64,000 bases of DNA. It comes from Xenophilus sp. Marseille-Q4582 (GTDB taxonomy: Bacteria > Pseudomonadota > Gammaproteobacteria > Burkholderiales > Burkholderiaceae_C). How positions within the stretch are numbered: position 1 is the first letter of the stretch; the number at the start of each line of letters is the position of its first letter. Both the position numbers and the translations under genes were made by a program. The notes under the pieces were generated by a model. The model saw nothing but the letters and a program-made list of their open reading frames with translations, had not been told where the DNA came from and ran no database searches. Location of the stretch: assembly GCF_916700565.1 (NCBI RefSeq), contig NZ_CAKAKO010000004.1:186001-250000 (forward strand), in the 5' to 3' direction. Positions 4,886 to 37,481 of the stretch are shown here, piece by piece.

Positions 4886-4975
4886 GTCAGTGCCGCCCGG
4901 CCGCCCGAAGGCACTGACGCGCCCCCCCGGGGGGCAGCGATGCGCGAAGCGATGAGCGTGGGGGCTGCATCATCA
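4886..4975. repeat. dispersed palindromic (REP-like) repeat, copy A, between gspD and gspE
   Basis: The gap between gspD and gspE holds a GC-rich repeat. A perfect nine-base inverted repeat, GTCAGTGCC (4886-4894) and GGCACTGAC (4910-4918), is followed by a C-run/G-run palindrome around 4922-4934. The same order of motifs, beginning with the same bases next to the start codon, recurs upstream of the IclR gene at 11089-11180. The resemblance is clear by eye: shared CGAAG, then GCGCCCCC and CGGGGGGC. The two copies are diverged. Function is unknown; a repetitive extragenic element is the simplest reading. Confidence 0.6.
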
Positions 4976-7294
4976 GGGCAGACGCTGTTGGGTCGACGGG
5001 TCGTCGGTCGGCGGCAAGGCGCCGCGCATCGGGTCCCAGTCGCTGGACGGCAGCGCGCGCGCTGCGGGCGCGGGCGGCAGCGGCGGCGGGATCAGGCGCG
5101 TGCCTTCGATGCGGCGCGAAGGATCGGGCGTGCGCGTCTCGGGCAGCGCGGGCAGCACGGGGGCGTCGTTGACCGCGCCCAGGATCGCGCTGCTGCGCGG
5201 CTGGCTGTTCTGCTGCAGCGCGCGCAGCATGTCGTAGCGGTCGGCCGTGACCGCATCGCCTGAGAGCGAATCGCGCACGATGGTCGGGCGCAGGAAGACC
5301 ATCAGGTTGTTCTTGCGGCGGCTGCGCGTCTCGCTCTTGAACAGGTTGCCGACCACCGGCACGTCGCCCAGGCCGGGCACCTTCTCCTCGCCGGCCGAAT
5401 ACTCGTCGGTCAGCAGGCCGCCCAGCACGATGAGGCCGCCGTCCTCGACCAGCACGCTCGATTCGATGGCGCGCTTGCTGGTGGTGGGGCCGTTGGGCCG
5501 CGTTTCGGTGCCCGGCACCACGGCCGAGACCTCCTGGAACACGGTCATCTTCACGGTGCCGGTCTCGCTGATCTGCGGCCGCACGCGCAGGGTCAGGCCC
5601 ACGTCCTTGCGCTCCACGGTCTGGAAGGGGTTGACCTGGGCCGTGCCCGCGCCCGTGTTGGTGAACTGGCCGGTCACGAAGGGCACGTTCTGGCCCACGA
5701 CGATCTTCGCCTCCTCGTTGTCCAGCGTCAGCAGGTTGGGGGTGGAGAGCACGTTGCCCTCGCCGTTGGCGGCCAGGAAGCGGGCGATGAAGCCCAGCCC
5801 GTTGCGGCGGTTGCCCGCGGCGATGTTCAAGCCGCTGGACGGCAGCGTGAGGCTCTGCAGGGTGGCGGCCGTCGGGTTGGCGGCCGCGGCCGCGATGCCC
5901 AGCGCCAGGTCGAGGATGTTGGCCTGCCCGCCCAGGCTGGAGTTGGTGCCCGCCGCCACTTCGCTGCCCAGCGCGGTCTGCCACTGCACGCCGAACTCGG
6001 CGGCCTTGTCGGCGTTCACTTCCACGATCAGGCTTTCGATCAGCACCTGCGCGCGCCGGCTGTCCAGGCGGTCGATCACGGCGCGGATCTGACGGTACTG
6101 CGGCTCGGGCGCCGTGATGATCAGCGAGTTGGTGCTCGGGTCGGCCTGGATCTGGCCGCCCACCGAGGGCTGGTTGGCGTTGTTGACCGGCGCCGTGGCG
6201 GCGCTGCTCAGACCGCTGGCATTGCTGCCGTTGAACCCCTGCTGTGCCTGCTGCAGGCCCAGGCCCGCCTGCTGCTGGACGTTGCCGAGCGGTGCGCCCG
6301 CCGCCGCGCCCGGCTGGCCGCTGGCGTTCAGCGTGCCGGCCGCGATGGCCGCGCGCAGCGTCGCGGCCAGGCGCACGGCGTCGGCGTTCTTCAGGTAGAC
6401 CACGTAGATGTTGCCCGCCGCGCCGTTGCCGCTGTTGATGGGCGCGCGGTCCAGCTTCTCGATCAGCGAGCGCACCAGCTGCACGCGGGCGGGGTTGGCC
6501 GCGCGCACGATGATCGCGTTGCTGCGCGGGTCGGCCAGCAGCGAGGTGCGGAACGACGCGTCGCCGCCCGGGGCCGCGGCCGCGCCGGCCGTCGCGGCGG
6601 TTGGCAGGCCGGTGGCGCCGCCGCCTTCCACCAGGCGCTGCACCAGCGGCACCAGGTCGGTCGCTATCGAATGGCGCAGCGGGATCACTTCCACGTCCGA
6701 CGCATTGGGCACGTCCAGCGCGGCCACGATGCGCGCCAGCCGCCGCAGGTTGTCGGCATAGTCGGTGATCACCAGCGCGTTGTTGCCGGGGCTCACGTTG
6801 ATGCTGTTGTTGGGCGCGATCAGCGGGCGCAGCACGGGCAGCACGTTGTTGGCCGACTCGTGGTGCAGCTTGAAGACCTGCGTGACGATCTGGTTGCCGC
6901 TGGCGGCGCCCGGGCCGGCCGTGGCCGTGGCGACGGTGCCGGTCTGCAGCTTGGCCTCGGCCTCGGGCACGACCTTGTACAGGCCCTCCGACACCACCAC
7001 CGCGAAGCCCTGCAGCCGCAGGGCGGCGCTGAACTGCTCGAAGGCCACGGCCGGGCTCACCGCGCGTTCGGTGGCCAGGTTGAGGGTGCCTTTGACGCGC
7101 GGGTCCACCACCACGTCGCGCCCGGTGATGACGGCCATGGTGCGCGCCACGGCCTCGATGTCGGCATTGGCGAAGTTCAGCGTCACGGGCTCGCCGCGCG
7201 CGACCTGGGCCACGCCCGTCGTCGGTGCCGTGAGCAGCAGCAGGGGGGCGACCAAGGCCGCGGCGAGGGCGTTGCGCGAACGCAGGGTTTTCAT
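4973..7294 (-). CDS. gspD: type II secretion outer-membrane secretin GspD
   Basis: Forms the outer-membrane channel through which folded exoproteins leave. The 773-residue protein has a signal peptide (cleavage near TTGVAQ, about residue 29), then an N0 domain (VTLNFANADIEAVARTMAVI), N1-N3 repeats (for example VFKLHHESANNVLPVLRPLI) interrupted by a long Gly/Ala/Gln-rich linker, and a C-terminal secretin domain with the motif VPVVGNLFKSETRSRRKNNL. A proline-rich tail follows the secretin domain. The gene starts 7 bases after gspN ends. Domain order and length are normal for GspD. Confidence 0.96.
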   Translation of the reverse strand: MKTLRSRNALAAALVAPLLLLTAPTTGVAQVARGEPVTLNFANADIEAVARTMAVITGRDVVVDPRVKGTLNLATERAVSPAVAFEQFSAALRLQGFAVVVSEGLYKVVPEAEAKLQTGTVATATAGPGAASGNQIVTQVFKLHHESANNVLPVLRPLIAPNNSINVSPGNNALVITDYADNLRRLARIVAALDVPNASDVEVIPLRHSIATDLVPLVQRLVEGGGATGLPTAATAGAAAAPGGDASFRTSLLADPRSNAIIVRAANPARVQLVRSLIEKLDRAPINSGNGAAGNIYVVYLKNADAVRLAATLRAAIAAGTLNASGQPGAAAGAPLGNVQQQAGLGLQQAQQGFNGSNASGLSSAATAPVNNANQPSVGGQIQADPSTNSLIITAPEPQYRQIRAVIDRLDSRRAQVLIESLIVEVNADKAAEFGVQWQTALGSEVAAGTNSSLGGQANILDLALGIAAAAANPTAATLQSLTLPSSGLNIAAGNRRNGLGFIARFLAANGEGNVLSTPNLLTLDNEEAKIVVGQNVPFVTGQFTNTGAGTAQVNPFQTVERKDVGLTLRVRPQISETGTVKMTVFQEVSAVVPGTETRPNGPTTSKRAIESSVLVEDGGLIVLGGLLTDEYSAGEEKVPGLGDVPVVGNLFKSETRSRRKNNLMVFLRPTIVRDSLSGDAVTADRYDMLRALQQNSQPRSSAILGAVNDAPVLPALPETRTPDPSRRIEGTRLIPPPLPPAPAARALPSSDWDPMRGALPPTDDPSTQQRLP

Positions 7295-28399: not shown

Positions 28400-28618
28400 C
28401 ATGCTTGGCTCGGGGGCCTGCACGAATGGGCAGGCATTCAGGGCAGCGATGCGCGCACAGCGGTGGGTGGCCGCTGCCGTGTCTTTTGGCCATTGGCGCA
28501 AAGCTTGCGTGCCCGCTGTGCCATCACTCGGGAAAGTCCCCGGAGTGATGTCCGTCATCGTGTTTCACATTCACGGGTCGCGGCAAGTTGCCGCCCCCAA
28601 CCCTCGAGGAGAAACTTT

Positions 28619-30199
28619 GTGAAGTTCCAACCCGCGTACCTGGCCGCCGTGGCAGCCGCGCTTGCACTGGCAGCGCCAGTGCTGCATGCCAAGACCTTCA
28701 AGTGGTCCAGTGCCAGCGACATTCCGACCCTGGACATCCACTCGCAGAACAATGCGCTGGGCAACGGGGTGCACGCGGCCATCTACGACGCGCTGGTCTA
28801 CTACAACAGCAAGACCTTCAAGCCCGAGCCGCAACTGGCCACGGCCTGGCAGCAGGTGTCGCCCACGCAGATGCGATTCACGCTGCGCACCGGCGTGAAG
28901 TTCAGCGACGGCTCGCCGCTGACGGCCGACGACGTGGTGTATTCGCTCACCCGCGCGATGGCCAAGACCTCGAACTACGCGGTGTTCGCGCAGGGCATCG
29001 ACAAGGTGGTCAAGGTCAACGACAACACCATCGACATCCTGCTCAAGGCGCCCACGCCCACGCTGGTGAACCAGTTGACCGAACTGCGCATCATGAGCCG
29101 CGCCTGGGCCGAGAAGAACAAGTCCCTGGAGCCCAAGGACATCAAGACGCAGGAAGAGACCTTCGCGCACCGCAACGCGATGGGCTCCGGTCCCTACATG
29201 GTCAAGGAATGGCTGCCCGACCAGCGCCTCGTGCTGGTGGCCAATCCGCATTACTGGGGCAAGAACCCGACGAACGTGACCGAGATCGTGTACCAGCCGA
29301 TCAAGTCGCAGGCCACGCGCCTGGCCGCGCTGCTGTCCGGCGAAACCGACTTCGTGCTCGACCCGAGTCCGCAGGATCTGGGCCGCCTGCGCAGCAACGC
29401 CAACATCAAGGTGCTGGACGGTGCCGAGAACCGCACCATCTTCCTGGGCATGGACCAGCACCGCGACGAACTCGTGGGCTCCAGCGTCAAGGGCAAGAAT
29501 CCGCTCAAGGACGTGCGCGTGCGCAAGGCGCTGTACCAGGCCATCGACATCAATGCCATCCAGCGCGTGACCCTGCGCGGCCTGGGCGAAGCGACGGGCA
29601 CGCTGATCTCGCCGCAGGTCAACGGCTGGACCAAGAAGGCCGACGCGCGCTGGCCCTACGACGTGAACGCGGCGCAGAAGCTGCTGGCCGATGCGGGCTA
29701 TCCGCAGGGCTTCGAAGTCGATTTCGCCTGCCCCAACAACCGCTACATCAACGACGAAGCGGTGTGCCAGGCCATCACGGCCATGTGGGCGCGCGTGGGC
29801 GTGAAGGCCAAGCTGCGCACGCTGCCGCTGGTGACCTATTTCCCGATGATCCAGCGCTACGAGGCCAGCATCTACATGCTGGGCTGGGGCGTGCCCACCT
29901 TCGACGCGCTGTACAGCCTGCAATCGCTGGTGCGCTCGGTGGGGGCGGGCGGCGATGGCAACTACAACGTGGGCCGCTATTCCAACCCGCAGATGGACGC
30001 GTTGATCGAGCGCGTGAAGGTCGAGACCGACCTGAAGAACCGCAACGAACTCATCGAGAAGGCGCTGGTGCTGTCGCATGACGACGTCGCCTACCTGCCG
30101 CTGTACAACCAGGTGATCCCCTGGGCCATGAAGAAGAACATCGAGGTGGTGCACCGGGCCGACAACCGGCTCGACTGGCGCCTGATCAAGGTCAACTGA
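28619..30199 (+). CDS. ABC transporter substrate-binding protein, peptide/Dpp type (first copy)
   Basis: Periplasmic binding protein (SBP family 5) for a peptide-like substrate. A GTG at 28619 with the ribosome-binding sequence GAGGAGAAAC gives 526 residues with a signal peptide (VKFQPAYLAAVAAALALAAP, cut near LHA-K). Family 5 features include SDGSPLTADDVVYSLTRAM, MGSGPYMVKEWLPDQRLVLV and FLGMDQHRDELVGSSVKGKN. It is about 50 percent identical by eye to the second binding protein at 32724. A terminator-like hairpin separates it from the permease gene, so it may be made in excess. Confidence 0.93.
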   Translation: MKFQPAYLAAVAAALALAAPVLHAKTFKWSSASDIPTLDIHSQNNALGNGVHAAIYDALVYYNSKTFKPEPQLATAWQQVSPTQMRFTLRTGVKFSDGSPLTADDVVYSLTRAMAKTSNYAVFAQGIDKVVKVNDNTIDILLKAPTPTLVNQLTELRIMSRAWAEKNKSLEPKDIKTQEETFAHRNAMGSGPYMVKEWLPDQRLVLVANPHYWGKNPTNVTEIVYQPIKSQATRLAALLSGETDFVLDPSPQDLGRLRSNANIKVLDGAENRTIFLGMDQHRDELVGSSVKGKNPLKDVRVRKALYQAIDINAIQRVTLRGLGEATGTLISPQVNGWTKKADARWPYDVNAAQKLLADAGYPQGFEVDFACPNNRYINDEAVCQAITAMWARVGVKAKLRTLPLVTYFPMIQRYEASIYMLGWGVPTFDALYSLQSLVRSVGAGGDGNYNVGRYSNPQMDALIERVKVETDLKNRNELIEKALVLSHDDVAYLPLYNQVIPWAMKKNIEVVHRADNRLDWRLIKVN

Positions 30200-30413: not shown

Positions 30414-32681
30414 ATGATTGCTTTCATCCTGCGCCGCCTCATCCAGGCCGTGGTCGTCATGGTCGCGGTGGCGTTCATCGCCTTCCTGCTTTTTCAGTAC
30501 GTCGGGGACCCGGTGACCTTCCTGCTCGGCCAGGACGCGACGCCGGCGCAGATCGCTGAGCTGCGTGCCGCGCTGGGGCTGGACAAGCCTTTCTTCGTGC
30601 AGTTCTGGCACTTCCTCGTCAACGCCGCGCAGGGTGAATTCGGGTTGAGCCTGCGCCAGGGCGCGAAAGTCTCCACGCTCATCGCGGAGCGTTTCCCGGC
30701 CACGCTGGAGCTGGCGCTGGTGGCCGCCGTGCTGGCGCTGCTGGTGGGCATTCCCATGGGCGTCTATGCGGCCCTGCGCCGCGGCAGCTTCATGAGCCAG
30801 GTCTTCATGACCCTCTCGCTGCTCGGCGTGTCGCTGCCCACCTTCCTGATCGGCATCCTGCTGATCCTGGTGTTCGCCGTGCACCTGGGCTGGTTCCCGA
30901 GCTTCGGCCGTGGCGACGTGACGCGCCTGGGCTGGTGGAGCACCGGCCTGCTCACGCCCAAGGGCTGGCACCACATCGTGCTGCCGGCCGTGACCCTGGC
31001 CATCTTCCAGCTCACGCTGATCATGCGGCTGGTGCGCGCCGAAATGCTGGAAGTGCTGCGCACCGACTACATCAAGTTCGCGCGCGCGCGGGGCCTGTCC
31101 AACCGCGCCATCCACTTCGGCCATGCGCTCAAGAACACGCTGGTGCCGGTGATGACCATCACGGGTCTGCAGCTGGGCGGCCTGATCGCCTTCGCCATCA
31201 TCACCGAGACGGTGTTCCAGTGGCCGGGCATGGGGCTGCTGTTCATCCAGGCCGTGACCTTCGCCGACATCCCGGTCATGGCCGCCTACCTGTGCCTGAT
31301 CGCGTTGATCTTCGTGGTCATCAACCTGGTCGTGGACCTGCTGTACTTCGCCGTCGACCCGCGCCTGCGCGTGGGCAGGCGGGAGGGCACTGAGATGACG
31401 ATGGCCTTCGTCACGCCGCGGGCGGAACCCGCCGCACCGCGCCTGCGCGCCGAAGGGCGCGCCTTCGCGCAGATCGCGCGCATGCACCCCGAGCTCACGG
31501 CCTTCCGGCGCGACCTGCACGCGCATCCCGAACTGGGTTTCGAAGAGGTCTACACCGCCGGCCGCGTGCGCGAGGCGCTGCGGGCCTGCGGCGTGGACGA
31601 GATCCACGAGGGCATCGGCCGCACGGGCGTGGTGGGCGTCATCCGCGGCCGTTCGACGGCCAGTGGCCGCATGCTGGGCCTGCGCGCCGACATGGATGCG
31701 CTGCCCATGCAGGAGCAGAACGAATTCGGCTGGTGCTCGGCCAAGTCGGGCCTGATGCACGGCTGCGGCCATGATGGCCACACGGCGATGCTGGTGGGCG
31801 CCGCCCGCTACCTGGCCGAGACGCGCCACTTCGACGGCACGGCCGTGCTCATCTTCCAGCCCGGCGAGGAAGGCCACGCCGGCGCACGCGTGATGATCGA
31901 GGACGGCCTGTTCGAGCGCTTCCCGGTGAATGCGGTCTACGCGATGCACAACTGGCCCGCCATGCCGGTAGGCACGGTGGGCATCAACCGCGGCGCGATG
32001 ATGGCCGCCGCCGACCGCATCACCATCGACATCACGGGCAAGGGCGGCCACGGCGCCCACGCCTACCAGACGGTGGACCCGGTGCTGGTTTCGGCCCACA
32101 TCATCACGGCCGCGCAGAGCATCGTCTCGCGCAACGTGCGGCCCATCGACGCGGCCGTCATCAGCCTGTGCGCGATGCAGGCGGGCGACGTGGACGCATT
32201 CAGCGTGATTCCCGGTTCGGCGCGGCTGGTGGGCACGGTGCGCACCTTCAACCTGCGCGTGCAGAACCAGGTCGAGCATCGGCTCAAGGAACTGTGCACG
32301 TCCGTGGCCGCGGCCTTCGGCGCCACGGCCAGCGTCAAGTACGAGCGCATCTATCCCGCCACCATCAACACGGCGCCCGAAGCCATGTTCGCGGCCGACG
32401 TGGCCGAATCGCTGGTGGGCGCGCACAACGTGGACCGGCACCTGGAGCCGAGCATGGGCGCGGAAGACTTCTCCTTCATGCTGCAGCACAAGGCCGGCGC
32501 CTACCTGCGCATCGGCCAGGACGTGCGCGACGGGGCGTACCTGCACAACCCGCGCTACGACTTCAATGACGAGATCCTGCCACTCGGGGCGGCGCTGCAT
32601 GCCAGCCTGATCGAGCAGGGCATGCCGCTGGCGGGTACCTCCGGCGCGGCGCAAGAGAACGCTGCCACCGCGGCGAATTGA
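30414..32681 (+). CDS. fusion: Dpp/Opp-type ABC permease + M20 family amidohydrolase
   Basis: One uninterrupted frame of 755 residues joins two proteins. Residues 1 to about 325 are a DppB-type inner-membrane permease (MIAFILRRLIQAVVVMVAVA, the EAA-loop RARGLSNRAIHFGHALKNTL at about 224-243, and a normal end at AVDPRLRVG). From Met328 an M20 metallo-amidohydrolase follows (FRRDLHAHPELGFEE; ADMDALPMQE; the metal motif HGCGHDGHTAM near 448; FQPGEEGHAGARVM near 481), as in hippurate or N-acyl amino-acid hydrolases. The permease C-terminus is cytoplasmic, so the enzyme would sit at the transporter exit. Met328 has a GGGAGGG sequence upstream, so a free hydrolase may also be made. An out-of-frame TGA at 31391-31393 leaves open a frameshift or sequencing error. 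Confidence 0.88.
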   Translation: MIAFILRRLIQAVVVMVAVAFIAFLLFQYVGDPVTFLLGQDATPAQIAELRAALGLDKPFFVQFWHFLVNAAQGEFGLSLRQGAKVSTLIAERFPATLELALVAAVLALLVGIPMGVYAALRRGSFMSQVFMTLSLLGVSLPTFLIGILLILVFAVHLGWFPSFGRGDVTRLGWWSTGLLTPKGWHHIVLPAVTLAIFQLTLIMRLVRAEMLEVLRTDYIKFARARGLSNRAIHFGHALKNTLVPVMTITGLQLGGLIAFAIITETVFQWPGMGLLFIQAVTFADIPVMAAYLCLIALIFVVINLVVDLLYFAVDPRLRVGRREGTEMTMAFVTPRAEPAAPRLRAEGRAFAQIARMHPELTAFRRDLHAHPELGFEEVYTAGRVREALRACGVDEIHEGIGRTGVVGVIRGRSTASGRMLGLRADMDALPMQEQNEFGWCSAKSGLMHGCGHDGHTAMLVGAARYLAETRHFDGTAVLIFQPGEEGHAGARVMIEDGLFERFPVNAVYAMHNWPAMPVGTVGINRGAMMAAADRITIDITGKGGHGAHAYQTVDPVLVSAHIITAAQSIVSRNVRPIDAAVISLCAMQAGDVDAFSVIPGSARLVGTVRTFNLRVQNQVEHRLKELCTSVAAAFGATASVKYERIYPATINTAPEAMFAADVAESLVGAHNVDRHLEPSMGAEDFSFMLQHKAGAYLRIGQDVRDGAYLHNPRYDFNDEILPLGAALHASLIEQGMPLAGTSGAAQENAATAAN

Positions 32682-32723: not shown

Positions 32724-34319
32724 ATGATCTTCAAGAAGTCCCTGGCCGCCACGGCGGCGATGTCGGCCCTCGCCTCCACCCTGGTGCTGGCCAGCTTCGG
32801 CGCGCAAGCGCAGACGGTGCGCATCGCCAACCAGGGTGACGCGCTGTCGCTCGATCCGCATTCGCTCAACGAATCGCTGCAGTTGAGCATCGCCTCGAAC
32901 GTCTACGAAGGGCTGACGGACCGCAACAAGGACCTGAGCCTGGCGCCGGGCCTGGCTACGAGCTGGAAGCAGACCTCGCCCTCGGTCTGGCGCTTCGAGC
33001 TGCGCAAGAACGTGCAGTTCCACGACGGCACGCCCTTCACGGCCGACGACGTGATCTTCAGCTTCGCGCGCGCGGCCGGCGATGGCTCGGACGTGAAGGC
33101 CAAGGTCAACGACATCAAGGAAGTGCGCAAGGTCGACAGCCACACGGTGGACATCGAGACCAAGGGCCCGTTCCCCATCCTGCCCGAGGTGCTCGCCGAC
33201 ATGTTCATCATGAGCAAGAAGTGGAGCGAGGACAACAAGGCCGAGCGCCCGGTGGACCGCCGCAAGGGCATCGAGAACGCGGCTTCCTTCAAGGCCAACG
33301 GCACCGGCCCGTACCGCGTGCGCGAGCGCCAGCCCGACGTGCGCACGGTCTTCGTGCGCAACGGCACCTACTGGGGCAAGATCGAGGGCAACGTGCAGGA
33401 GGTGGTGTTCCAGCCCATCGCCAACCCGGCCACGCGCGTGGCCGCGCTGATCTCGGGACAGGTCGACGTGATGGAACCGATCCCGGTGCAGGACATCCCG
33501 CGCGTGAACGGCAACGCCAGCACGCGCGCCATCGTCGGGCCCGAGATGCGCACCATCTTCCTGGGCATGGACCAAAAGCGCGACGAGCTGCTGTATTCCA
33601 GCGTGAAGGGCAAGAACCCCTTCAAGGACAAGCGCGTGCGCCAGGCCTTCTACCAGGCCATCGACATCAACGCGATCCAGAAGACGGTGATGCGCGGCGC
33701 CTCCAAGCCCACGGCATTGATGGTCGGCCCCGGCATCAACGGCTGGACCGAAGCGCAGGACAAGCGCCTGCCCTACGACCCGGAAGCCTCCAAGAAGCTG
33801 CTGGCTGACGCCGGCTATCCGCAGGGCTTCGAGGTGACCATGAACTGCCCGAACGACCGCTACGTGAATGACGCGCAGGTCTGCCAGGCGGTGGCGGCCA
33901 ACCTGGCGCGCGTGGGCATCAAGATCAACCTGGCGGCCGAGACCAAGGGCACCTACTTCCCCAAGATCCTGCGCCGCGACACCAGCTTCTATCTGCTGGG
34001 CTGGACGCCTTCGACCTACGATTCGCACAATGCGCTCAATGCCCTGATGCGCACTCCCGACGACAAGACGGGCGACGGCCAGTTCAACCTGGGCTCGTAC
34101 AGCAACCCGAAGGTGGACGAACTGACGGTGAAGGTGCAATCCGAAGGCGACATGGCCAAGCGCACGGCCATGATCAAGGAGGCCTTCCAGCTGCATGCGG
34201 ACGACATCGGCCACCTGCCGCTGCACCAGCAGTCGCTGGCCTGGGGCGTGAGCAAGAAGGTCGAGCTGACGCAGCGCGCCGACAACTTCATGACCTTCAA
34301 GTGGATGAGCGTCAAGTAA
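32724..34319 (+). CDS. ABC transporter substrate-binding protein, peptide/Dpp type (second copy)
   Basis: Second periplasmic family-5 binding protein of the same operon, 531 residues. The ATG at 32724 follows GAGGAG and starts a signal peptide (MIFKKSLAATAAMSALASTL, cut near AQA-QT). Motifs match its sister at 28619: HDGTPFTADDVIFSFARAA, ANGTGPYRVRERQ and FLGMDQKRDELLYSSVKGKN. The differences in the central lobe suggest a related but different ligand. It lies between the permease-hydrolase fusion and the second permease. Confidence 0.94.
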   Translation: MIFKKSLAATAAMSALASTLVLASFGAQAQTVRIANQGDALSLDPHSLNESLQLSIASNVYEGLTDRNKDLSLAPGLATSWKQTSPSVWRFELRKNVQFHDGTPFTADDVIFSFARAAGDGSDVKAKVNDIKEVRKVDSHTVDIETKGPFPILPEVLADMFIMSKKWSEDNKAERPVDRRKGIENAASFKANGTGPYRVRERQPDVRTVFVRNGTYWGKIEGNVQEVVFQPIANPATRVAALISGQVDVMEPIPVQDIPRVNGNASTRAIVGPEMRTIFLGMDQKRDELLYSSVKGKNPFKDKRVRQAFYQAIDINAIQKTVMRGASKPTALMVGPGINGWTEAQDKRLPYDPEASKKLLADAGYPQGFEVTMNCPNDRYVNDAQVCQAVAANLARVGIKINLAAETKGTYFPKILRRDTSFYLLGWTPSTYDSHNALNALMRTPDDKTGDGQFNLGSYSNPKVDELTVKVQSEGDMAKRTAMIKEAFQLHADDIGHLPLHQQSLAWGVSKKVELTQRADNFMTFKWMSVK

Positions 34320-34422
34320 GCCACGCGTAATGGCGCGCCGGGCGGGCGGCAGGGCCGCCGCCCGGCTGCGCCTGCAGCGCATTGCCGTGTGCCCAGGGAC
34401 GGCACGGCCACAGAAACCCCCG

Positions 34423-35334
34423 ATGAAAAAAACGCTTGCCCGCTGGCTCGACAGCGATGTCGGCTACAGCTTCCGCACCTCGCCCGTGGCCATCACGGCG
34501 GCGCTCATCGCGTTCGTGTGCATCTTCTGTTCGGTGTTCGCCAACTGGGTGGCACCGCACAACCCCTTCGACCTGGCCTCGCTGGAACTGGGCGATGCGC
34601 GCCTGCCGCCCATGTGGTCGGAGGGCGGCAGCGCCAAGTACGTGTTCGGCACCGACGACCAGGGCCGCGACATCCTCTCGGCGCTGATCTACGGCGCGCG
34701 CATCTCGCTCGTGGTGGGCGTGGTGTCGGTGCTGCTGTCGGTCTTCGTGGGGGTGCTGCTGGGCCTGCTGGCCGGCTTCGTCGGCGGCTGGCTCGACGCC
34801 TTCCTCATGCGCGTGTGCGACGTGATGCTGTCTTTTCCGCCCATCCTGGTGGCGCTGCTCATCGCCGGCGTGGGCCGCGCGCTGTTTCCGAACGCGCACG
34901 AGTCCCTGGCCTTCGGCGTGCTGATCATCTCGATCTCGCTCACGGGCTGGGTGCAGTACGCGCGCACGGTGCGCGGCTCCACGATGGTGGAGCGCAACAA
35001 GGAATATGTGCAGGCCGCGCGCGTGACGGGCGTCTCGCCGCTGCGCATCATGCTGCGCCATGTGCTGCCCAACGTGACCGGGCCGGTGCTCGTGCTGGCC
35101 ACCATCCAGGTGGCCACGGCCATCATCACCGAGGCCACGCTGTCCTTCCTGGGCGTGGGTGTGCCGCCCACCTCGCCCTCGCTGGGCACGCTGATCCGCG
35201 TGGGCAACGACTACCTGTTCTCGGGCGAATGGTGGATCACTGTCTTCCCGGGCGTGATGCTGGTGCTGATCGCGCTGAGCGTGAACCTGCTGGGCGACTG
35301 GCTGCGCGACGCGCTCAACCCCCGCCTGCGCTGA
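34423..35334 (+). CDS. ABC transporter permease, DppC type
   Basis: Second inner-membrane subunit of the peptide-type importer. The 303-residue protein begins MKKTLARWLDSDVGYSFRTS and has the OppC N-terminal segment (AAL-IAFVCIFCSVFANWVAP) and five further membrane segments. The conserved periplasmic FGTDDQGRDILSALIYGARI and the EAA loop (EYVQAARVTGVSPLRIMLRH) are clear. It pairs with the DppB part of the fusion at 30414. The gap to dppD is 15 bases. Confidence 0.94.
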   Translation: MKKTLARWLDSDVGYSFRTSPVAITAALIAFVCIFCSVFANWVAPHNPFDLASLELGDARLPPMWSEGGSAKYVFGTDDQGRDILSALIYGARISLVVGVVSVLLSVFVGVLLGLLAGFVGGWLDAFLMRVCDVMLSFPPILVALLIAGVGRALFPNAHESLAFGVLIISISLTGWVQYARTVRGSTMVERNKEYVQAARVTGVSPLRIMLRHVLPNVTGPVLVLATIQVATAIITEATLSFLGVGVPPTSPSLGTLIRVGNDYLFSGEWWITVFPGVMLVLIALSVNLLGDWLRDALNPRLR

Positions 35335-35349
35335 AGAAGGAACCCCGCC

Positions 35350-36435
35350 ATGAGCCTTCTTCAAGTCAAGAACCTGGTCGTCGAGTTCCCCAACCGCCGC
35401 GGCACGCTGCGCGCGCTCGACGACATTTCCTTCGAGATCGCGCCGGGCGAGATCCTCGGCGTGGTGGGCGAATCGGGGGCCGGCAAGTCGCTCACGGGCG
35501 CGGCCATCATCGGCCTGCTGGAGCCGCCGGGCCGCGTCGCCGGCGGGCAGATCCTGCTCGAAGGCCAGCGCATCGACAACCTCGGCTACGAGCCGATGCG
35601 CCACATCCGCGGGCGCAAGATCGGGGCGATCTTCCAGGACCCGCTGACCTCGCTGAACCCGCTGTATACCGTGGGCCGGCAATTGATCGAGACCATCCGC
35701 ACGCACCTGGACGTGAGCGAGGCCCAGGCGCGCCAGCGCGCCATCGAGCTGCTCAAGGACACCGGCATCCCGGCCGCCGAGCAGCGCATCGACCACTACC
35801 CGCACCAGTTCTCGGGCGGCATGCGCCAGCGCGTGGTGATCGCGCTGGCCTTGGCGGCCGAGCCCAAGCTGATCGTGGCCGACGAGCCGACCACGGCGCT
35901 GGACGTGTCGATCCAGGCGCAGATCATCCAGTTGCTCAAGAAGCTGTGCCGCGAGCGCGGCGCGGCCGTGATGCTGATCACCCACGACATGGGCGTGATC
36001 GCCGAGACCTGCGACCGCGTGGCCGTGATGTACGCGGGCCGCATCGCCGAGATCGGCCCGGTGCACGAGGTCATCCACCAGCCCGCACACCCCTACACGG
36101 GCGGGCTCATGGCCTCCATTCCCGACATGGACAGCGACCGCGAGCGCCTGAACCAGATCGATGGCGCGATGCCGCGCCTCAATGCGATTCCCAAGGGCTG
36201 CGCCTACAACCCGCGCTGCCCGCGCGTGTTCGACCGCTGCCTGCAGGAGCGGCCCGAGCTGATCCATGCCGGCGTGACGCGTGCCGCCTGCTGGCTGCAC
36301 GACGCCACCGACCCGCACCACGGCCATGCGGCGCTGTTGCAGGAACATGAACGGCAGCAGGCGCAGGGCGAGCGCGCCGCGCCGGACCCGGCCGCGCCGC
36401 TGGCGGCGGCCGTTGCCCAGGAGGTCGCACGATGA
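35350..36435 (+). CDS. ABC transporter ATP-binding protein, DppD type
   Basis: Cytoplasmic ATPase of the peptide-type importer, 361 residues. Walker A GESGAGKS is at 40-47, the signature is FSGGMRQR, Walker B is [13 protein letters not shown], and the H-loop is LITHDMGV. The C-terminal oligopeptide-type extension holds the Cys cluster [15 protein letters not shown], which in this family can bind an iron-sulfur cluster. The last four bases overlap the next ATPase start (ATGA). Confidence 0.95.
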
Positions 36436-37481
36436 GCGCCGTGATGGAACCCAGCCAGACCCGCGGGGCAGCCCGGACGCCTTCGGCGGGCAAGCCCCTG
36501 GTGGTCGCCCATGACCTGGCCAAGACCTTCGACGTTTCGGCGCCCTGGCTCAACCGCGTGCTCGAGCGCAAGCCGCGCACCCTGCTGCATGCCGTCGACG
36601 GCGTAAGCTTCGAGATCGAGCGCGGCAAGACGCTGGCGCTGGTGGGCGAATCCGGCTGTGGCAAGAGCACGGTGGCGCGCCTGCTGGTGGGCCTGTACGA
36701 GCCCACGCGCGGCGGCATGCACTTCGACGGGCAGGATGCGCACGCGGCTTTTAAAACGGCCGAAGGCCGCAAGCTGCGCAAGCGCATCCAGATGATCTTC
36801 CAGGACCCGTACGCGAGCCTGAACCCGCGCTGGATCGTGGAGGACATCATCGCCGAGCCGATGCGCGAGCACGGCCTCCTGAGTGGCAAGGAGGCTGTCA
36901 AGGCCCGCGTCGGCGAGCTGCTGCAGTCGGTGGGCCTGTCGCCGCTGGACATGGTCAAGTACCCGCACCAGTTCTCGGGCGGGCAGCGCCAGCGCATTTC
37001 CATCGCGCGCGCGCTGGCCACGGCGCCCGAGTTCCTGGTCTGCGACGAGCCGACCTCGGCGCTGGACGTGAGCGTGCAGGCGCAGGTGCTCAACATCATG
37101 AAGGACCTGCAGCGCGAGCGCGGGCTGACCTACCTGTTCATCTCGCACAACCTCGCGGTGGTGCGCCATGTGAGCGACCAGGTGGGCGTGATGTACCTGG
37201 GCCGGCTGGTGGAGCTGGCCGACAAGGCCGAGCTGTTCGCGCGCCCGCGCCACCCCTACACGCGCATGCTGCTGGACGCGATCCCGCAGATGCACGCCAC
37301 GGGCCGTTCGCGCACGCCGGTGCAGGGCGAGGTGCCCAACCCGCTGAACCCGCCCACGGGCTGCGCCTTCCACCCGCGCTGCCCGCACGCCAATGCGCGC
37401 TGCTCGGCCGAGCGGCCGGCGCTGCTGTCCATCGGCGGCGTGCGCGTGGCCTGCCACGCGGTGGAGGAAGGGCGGATCTGA
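36432..37481 (+). CDS. ABC transporter ATP-binding protein, DppF type
   Basis: Partner ATPase, 349 residues. Walker A GESGCGKS is at 72-79, the signature is [15 protein letters not shown], Walker B is [12 protein letters not shown], and the H-loop is FISHNLAV. It ends with the same family Cys cluster ([16 protein letters not shown]). It is the last gene of the operon and is convergent with zwf 58 bases away. Confidence 0.95.

Follow-up and report, generated by a model that had tools for sequence, protein, structure and literature searches.

A 755-codon open reading frame in the 64,000-nucleotide stretch of Xenophilus sp. Marseille-Q4582 DNA analysed here (the window) joins a DppB-type ABC permease to an M20D amidohydrolase. 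The most likely source of this frame is a private one-base loss, or a sequencing slip, where two genes lie tightly side by side, rather than the evolution of an importer-hydrolase fusion. Our preferred reading, to which we assign a probability of about 0.58, is a peptide/N-acyl-amino-acid ABC operon in which the final codons of the permease gene have recently been shortened by one base in this lineage.

The open reading frame and its two domains

In the window the frame runs from ATG to TGA at 30414-32681 on the forward strand, with no internal stop, and contains the following elements.

30414-31370, + strand: DppB-type permease, residues 1-319 of the open frame
31371-31394, + strand: the join, covering the final codons of the permease, which lack one base relative to congeners and are read out of the ancestral frame
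31381-31387, + strand: GGGAGGG, Shine-Dalgarno-like site of the M20 gene, anti-SD duplex -10.8
31391-31393, + strand: TGA homologous to the permease stop of congeners, out of frame here, identified by comparison with them
31395-32681, + strand: M20D amidohydrolase gene of 428 amino acids, from its own ATG to a TGA stop

The original prediction placed a complete permease and a complete M20 enzyme with metal motifs in one frame, joined at Met328 past the normal permease end, and the domain analysis bears this out. The permease half matches the Pfam families BPD_transp_1_N (PF19300; residues 1-101) and BPD_transp_1 (PF00528; residues 112-319), the ATG at 31395 encodes Met328, and the enzyme half matches Peptidase_M20 (residues 423-735) and M20_dimer (residues 536-631), in each case above the gathering score. 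The enzyme also matches the NCBIfam amidohydrolase family TIGR01891 over residues 361-725, with 326.2 bits against a cut-off of 153.75. Its segments HGCGHDGH (449), PGEEG (483), HN (512) and GAEDF (682) are taken by us to be the metal-site and catalytic motifs of an M20 enzyme, and C451, H453, E485, E486, H512 and H711 are invariant across the nine rows of a protein alignment. About 35 linker residues lie between the two domains, as judged from their boundaries. An AlphaFold2 model has a mean pLDDT of 55.4, with residues 72-342 below 50, and we draw no conclusion from it.

Residues 1-319 align along nearly the full length of the permeases DppB (PDB 8z1v) and OppB (PDB 8z21), from which the open frame differs in carrying a C-terminal enzyme. 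On the enzyme side, alignments extend over residues 349-731 for the M20D protein YxeP (1ysj), 350-743 for IAA-amino acid hydrolase ILR1-like 2 (1xmb) and 366-689 for N-alpha-acyl-glutamine aminoacylase (6slf), the last being further off in sequence than the other two. Unlike these M20D enzymes, the one described here follows a permease in the same frame, and its scores do not reach the equivalog cut-offs for CpsA and DoeB2. None of the NCBIfam equivalogs matched reaches its cut-off for either the permease or the enzyme, the dipeptide DppB equivalog PRK10914 giving 221.7 bits on the permease against a cut-off of 590, and we therefore leave the operon substrate unassigned. If the fusion is made, its enzyme would presumably face the cytoplasm, given the known topology of DppB-type permeases.

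The junction between permease and enzyme

Comparison with the nearest species (G002) shows that the window has one base fewer in the last permease codons, with the TGA and the ATG at homologous places. The missing base causes the TGA to be skipped and the enzyme frame to be entered at its own start. A small indel in an ordinary gene pair, suggested at the outset as the origin of the open frame, is supported by these comparisons, since the permease of congeners ends at the homologous TGA, immediately upstream of which the window lacks one base relative to them. An out-of-frame TGA had also been described as overlapping the ATG region; it is present at 31391-31393 and there is no overlap, its last base lying one base upstream of the ATG at 31395.

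Related genomes carry two separate genes

In every one of the 14 congeners, the permease and M20 are two adjacent genes. The permease tail before the TGA reads RVGKAGGH in 13 of these and RVSKAGGH in the remaining one, with M20 in another frame, and the M20 ATG follows the permease stop by 1 base in G002, by 2 bases in seven congeners and by 43 in six.

A wider survey covered 148 loci, of which 25 were dropped as one of the two genes fell below threshold. The 123 that were read gave 99 distinct junctions including that of the window, where distinct junctions are defined by the last 300 aligned permease bases and locus L222 is left outside the count. None of the 98 others is fused (1/99 overall, the window's own). 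The first stop at these 98 is TGA in 92 cases, TAG in four and TAA in two, and M20 occupies each of the three possible phases relative to the permease (29, 28 and 41 cases), the pattern expected of separate genes.

Searches at increasing taxonomic depth matched 268 of 399 genomes in the family (at 1e-150), 18 of 399 in the order (at 1e-180) and two of 369 in the class (at 1e-200), the window's own genome being included each time; among the matches listed, only the row of the window spans both parts without a stop. Seven family and eight order genomes that align across both parts were considered as possible cases of a conserved or recurrent fusion and rejected, as each has an internal stop; all 15 of their junctions were read and consist of separate genes. 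Two further loci, L102 (5001-6005, in a complete genome) and L115 (5001-6000, in a low-coverage metagenome contig), appeared as odd junctions with only a partial best permease match. This is explained by a frame break inside the permease, not by fusion; both retain the usual tail and stop before M20. Searching plasmids with the join gave 286 matching records, in none of which 80% of the query was covered at one place, and the literature searched contained nothing relevant on a permease-M20 fusion or on such an operon. The comparison of orthologues proposed in advance as a check for a conserved fusion thus gave two separate genes at every other junction read, the outcome named at the outset as refuting the proposal, and a fused state common to more than one lineage, by which an evolved fusion would be recognised, is absent from the 98 distinct other junctions.

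Selection on the two halves and a probable internal start for the enzyme

Residues 1-318 of the permease are 98% identical to those of G002. Both halves are under strong purifying selection relative to this nearest species, with dN/dS values of 0.024 for the permease and 0.088 for M20; across the other nine pairings of the window, G002, G003, G009 and G010, the values are 0.05-0.11 and 0.13-0.21, respectively. Neither half gives a sign of relaxed constraint, but the event may be too recent to have left a trace.

The M20 gene keeps a strong ribosome-binding site, with only 3 of 740 in-frame positions, itself included, scoring equal or better in anti-SD duplex energy. The corresponding energies are -10.2 in G002, -10.8 in G003 and -10.1 in G010. 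In G009, where the start lies 43 bases past the stop, the site is weak (-0.3), so a strong internal site is not universal. Since this site and the ATG at 31395 are both kept, a free enzyme is likely beside any fusion; from the sequence, the free enzyme (calculated mass 46 kDa) is probably made alongside any fusion product (calculated mass 82 kDa).

Indels in the source genome

The frequency of frame-breaking indels was estimated at the DNA level by aligning a single 653-kb contig of G002 to 850 kb of the contig that carries the window. The aligned portion comprised 413,717 bases; frames whose base pattern is that of coding sequence account for 378,732 of them, with overlapping frames counted separately. 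There are 19 isolated indels not divisible by three, and seven of these touch a coding-pattern frame in either genome. None of the seven is more than 243 bases from a frame edge: six are on the 5' side, where start codons were chosen mechanically, and the seventh is 40 bases away from a 3' end. No isolated short frameshift was found deep within a gene in the ~379 kb of aligned coding frames. The isolated-indel count omits any indel with another gap within 90 bases, and hence omits both the junction itself and a larger deletion in the source genome described below.

A count of frameshifts from protein alignments was set aside in favour of this DNA-level count, having been swamped by the spurious long frames of a high-GC genome. 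It left seven and five two-frame cases in the two directions; of three that were opened, one proved to be an antisense frame, one a larger internal deletion that breaks the frame in the source genome, and one was translated, while the remainder, the fusion aside, were judged on base pattern alone to be wrong 5' extensions. Likewise, a comparison of C-terminal ends, in which 19 of 265 pairs differ, includes spurious frames, among them the antisense frame at 5247-6092 described below, and no evidence is drawn from it.

Two observations were made in passing. Outside the window, at about 86440-86900 of contig C4 of the source genome (L162, ~440-900), the counterpart of a 208-residue G002 gene is shortened by a large internal deletion with a frame break. 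Within the window, a long frame at 5247-6092 (+ strand) has a counterpart in the nearest species and no Pfam match; it lies antisense to the gene at 4973-7294 (- strand), which we take from its sequence to be secretin-like.

Origin of the open frame

The closest competitor to a real base loss is an error of assembly or base calling, in which case the organism has two ordinary genes with the stop-start junction of its congeners. We regard this as a serious possibility, though the lesser of the two. The source is a single draft assembly (5.54 Mb in 13 contigs), the window's junction is the only fused one of 99, and PMC3711429 expects that a singleton frameshift confirmed by BLASTp will be a sequencing error and not a genuine mutation. 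The records of this same permease gene in L102 and L115 are also frame-broken, by either error or decay, which moved our odds, lowering the estimate for a real mutation from 0.62 to 0.58 and raising that for an error by as much. Against an error, the join does not lie within a long homopolymer, and the lack of deep isolated frameshifts on the same contig suggests that the assembly is not ridden with indels and so speaks for a real mutation, placed at a gene end, where changes are tolerated. PMC3711429 also offers, as speculation, that a frameshift near the 3' end of a gene is likelier to be an indel mutation than a sequencing error when compared with other positions, and tolerated real changes are to be expected at gene ends. 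On balance, we favour a real mutation over an assembly error by about three to two.

A selected, functional fusion, with M20 tethered at the transporter exit and substrate channelled from import to hydrolysis, would accord with the intactness and constraint of both parts, with the linker that separates the domains and with the adjacency of the genes in many relatives, which makes a shared substrate plausible. We nevertheless consider it very improbable, because none of the 98 other junctions is fused, because only the window spans both parts without a stop among the family, order and class matches listed, and because M20 retains its own start and ribosome-binding site. The original proposal that the fusion physically couples import to hydrolysis accordingly finds no support. 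Somewhat less improbable, yet still unlikely, is a newborn fusion, in which losing the base converted two coupled genes into a tethered importer-hydrolase while internal initiation went on supplying free enzyme, giving a new, fixed stoichiometry of transporter and enzyme at the membrane.

Under our preferred reading of a recent base loss in an ordinary operon, the loss would shift translation of the permease beyond its TGA, so that it continues in the frame of M20. The predicted product is an 82-kDa read-through protein comprising permease, linker and enzyme, in which the permease would probably still function with an enzyme on its cytoplasmic end. Ribosomes would probably also initiate at the intact M20 site and ATG, giving an ordinary 46-kDa cytosolic enzyme. 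Import and subsequent cytosolic hydrolysis would then be linked through the shared operon, with no need of a fusion. Translationally coupled ABC-transporter gene pairs, as described in the GeneTack cluster study (PMC3711429), offer a parallel to the eight of 14 congeners in which the M20 ATG lies 1-2 bases past the stop. In contrast to the coupled pairs described there, the window skips the stop, and reinitiation would give way to read-through and possible internal initiation.

The operon and its likely function

The remaining transporter genes lie on either side of the open frame, as follows.

28463-30199, + strand: SBP1, DppA/OppA-like substrate-binding protein; start mechanical, true start probably further in
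32724-34319, + strand: SBP2, GsiB/DppA-like substrate-binding protein; start ATG at 32724 picked by its ribosome-binding site
34330-35334, + strand: DppC-type permease; start mechanical
35350-36435, + strand: DppD/OppD-like ATPase
36432-37481, + strand: DppF/OppF-like ATPase; PRK11308 410.8 bits against a cut-off of 408

The operon thus resembles the peptide ABC importers in also having relatives of DppC, DppD and DppF. Two different substrate-binding proteins flank the permease-M20 pair, SBP1 and SBP2 being 46.6% identical over 513 aligned positions.

The full seven-gene order (SBP1, permease B, M20, SBP2, permease C, ATPase, ATPase) is found at 25 of 80 named loci. Another 21 have the same order with no SBP1 detected, which may sit beyond the fetched flank; 11 have the M20 gene alone, and two have the permease and other transporter parts with no M20 gene detected. 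The association of M20 with the transporter operon is common, not universal.

The M20 sequence is nearest to YxeP and to the IAA-amino acid hydrolase homologue, which points to uptake and cleavage of N-acyl or peptide-like compounds as the job of the operon. On this basis it likely imports N-acyl amino acids or peptide-like compounds that are cleaved in the cytoplasm.

Implications

If the base loss is real, it would represent a natural one-step route from a stop-start pair in an ABC operon to a fusion protein, with the old internal start acting as a safety net. If it is not, the locus illustrates how a slip of one base at a tight junction can yield an annotated multidomain protein that looks convincing yet is false. 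In both cases, to judge from the shared operon, many Comamonadaceae would take up an N-acyl or peptide-like compound and hydrolyse that compound in the cytosol.
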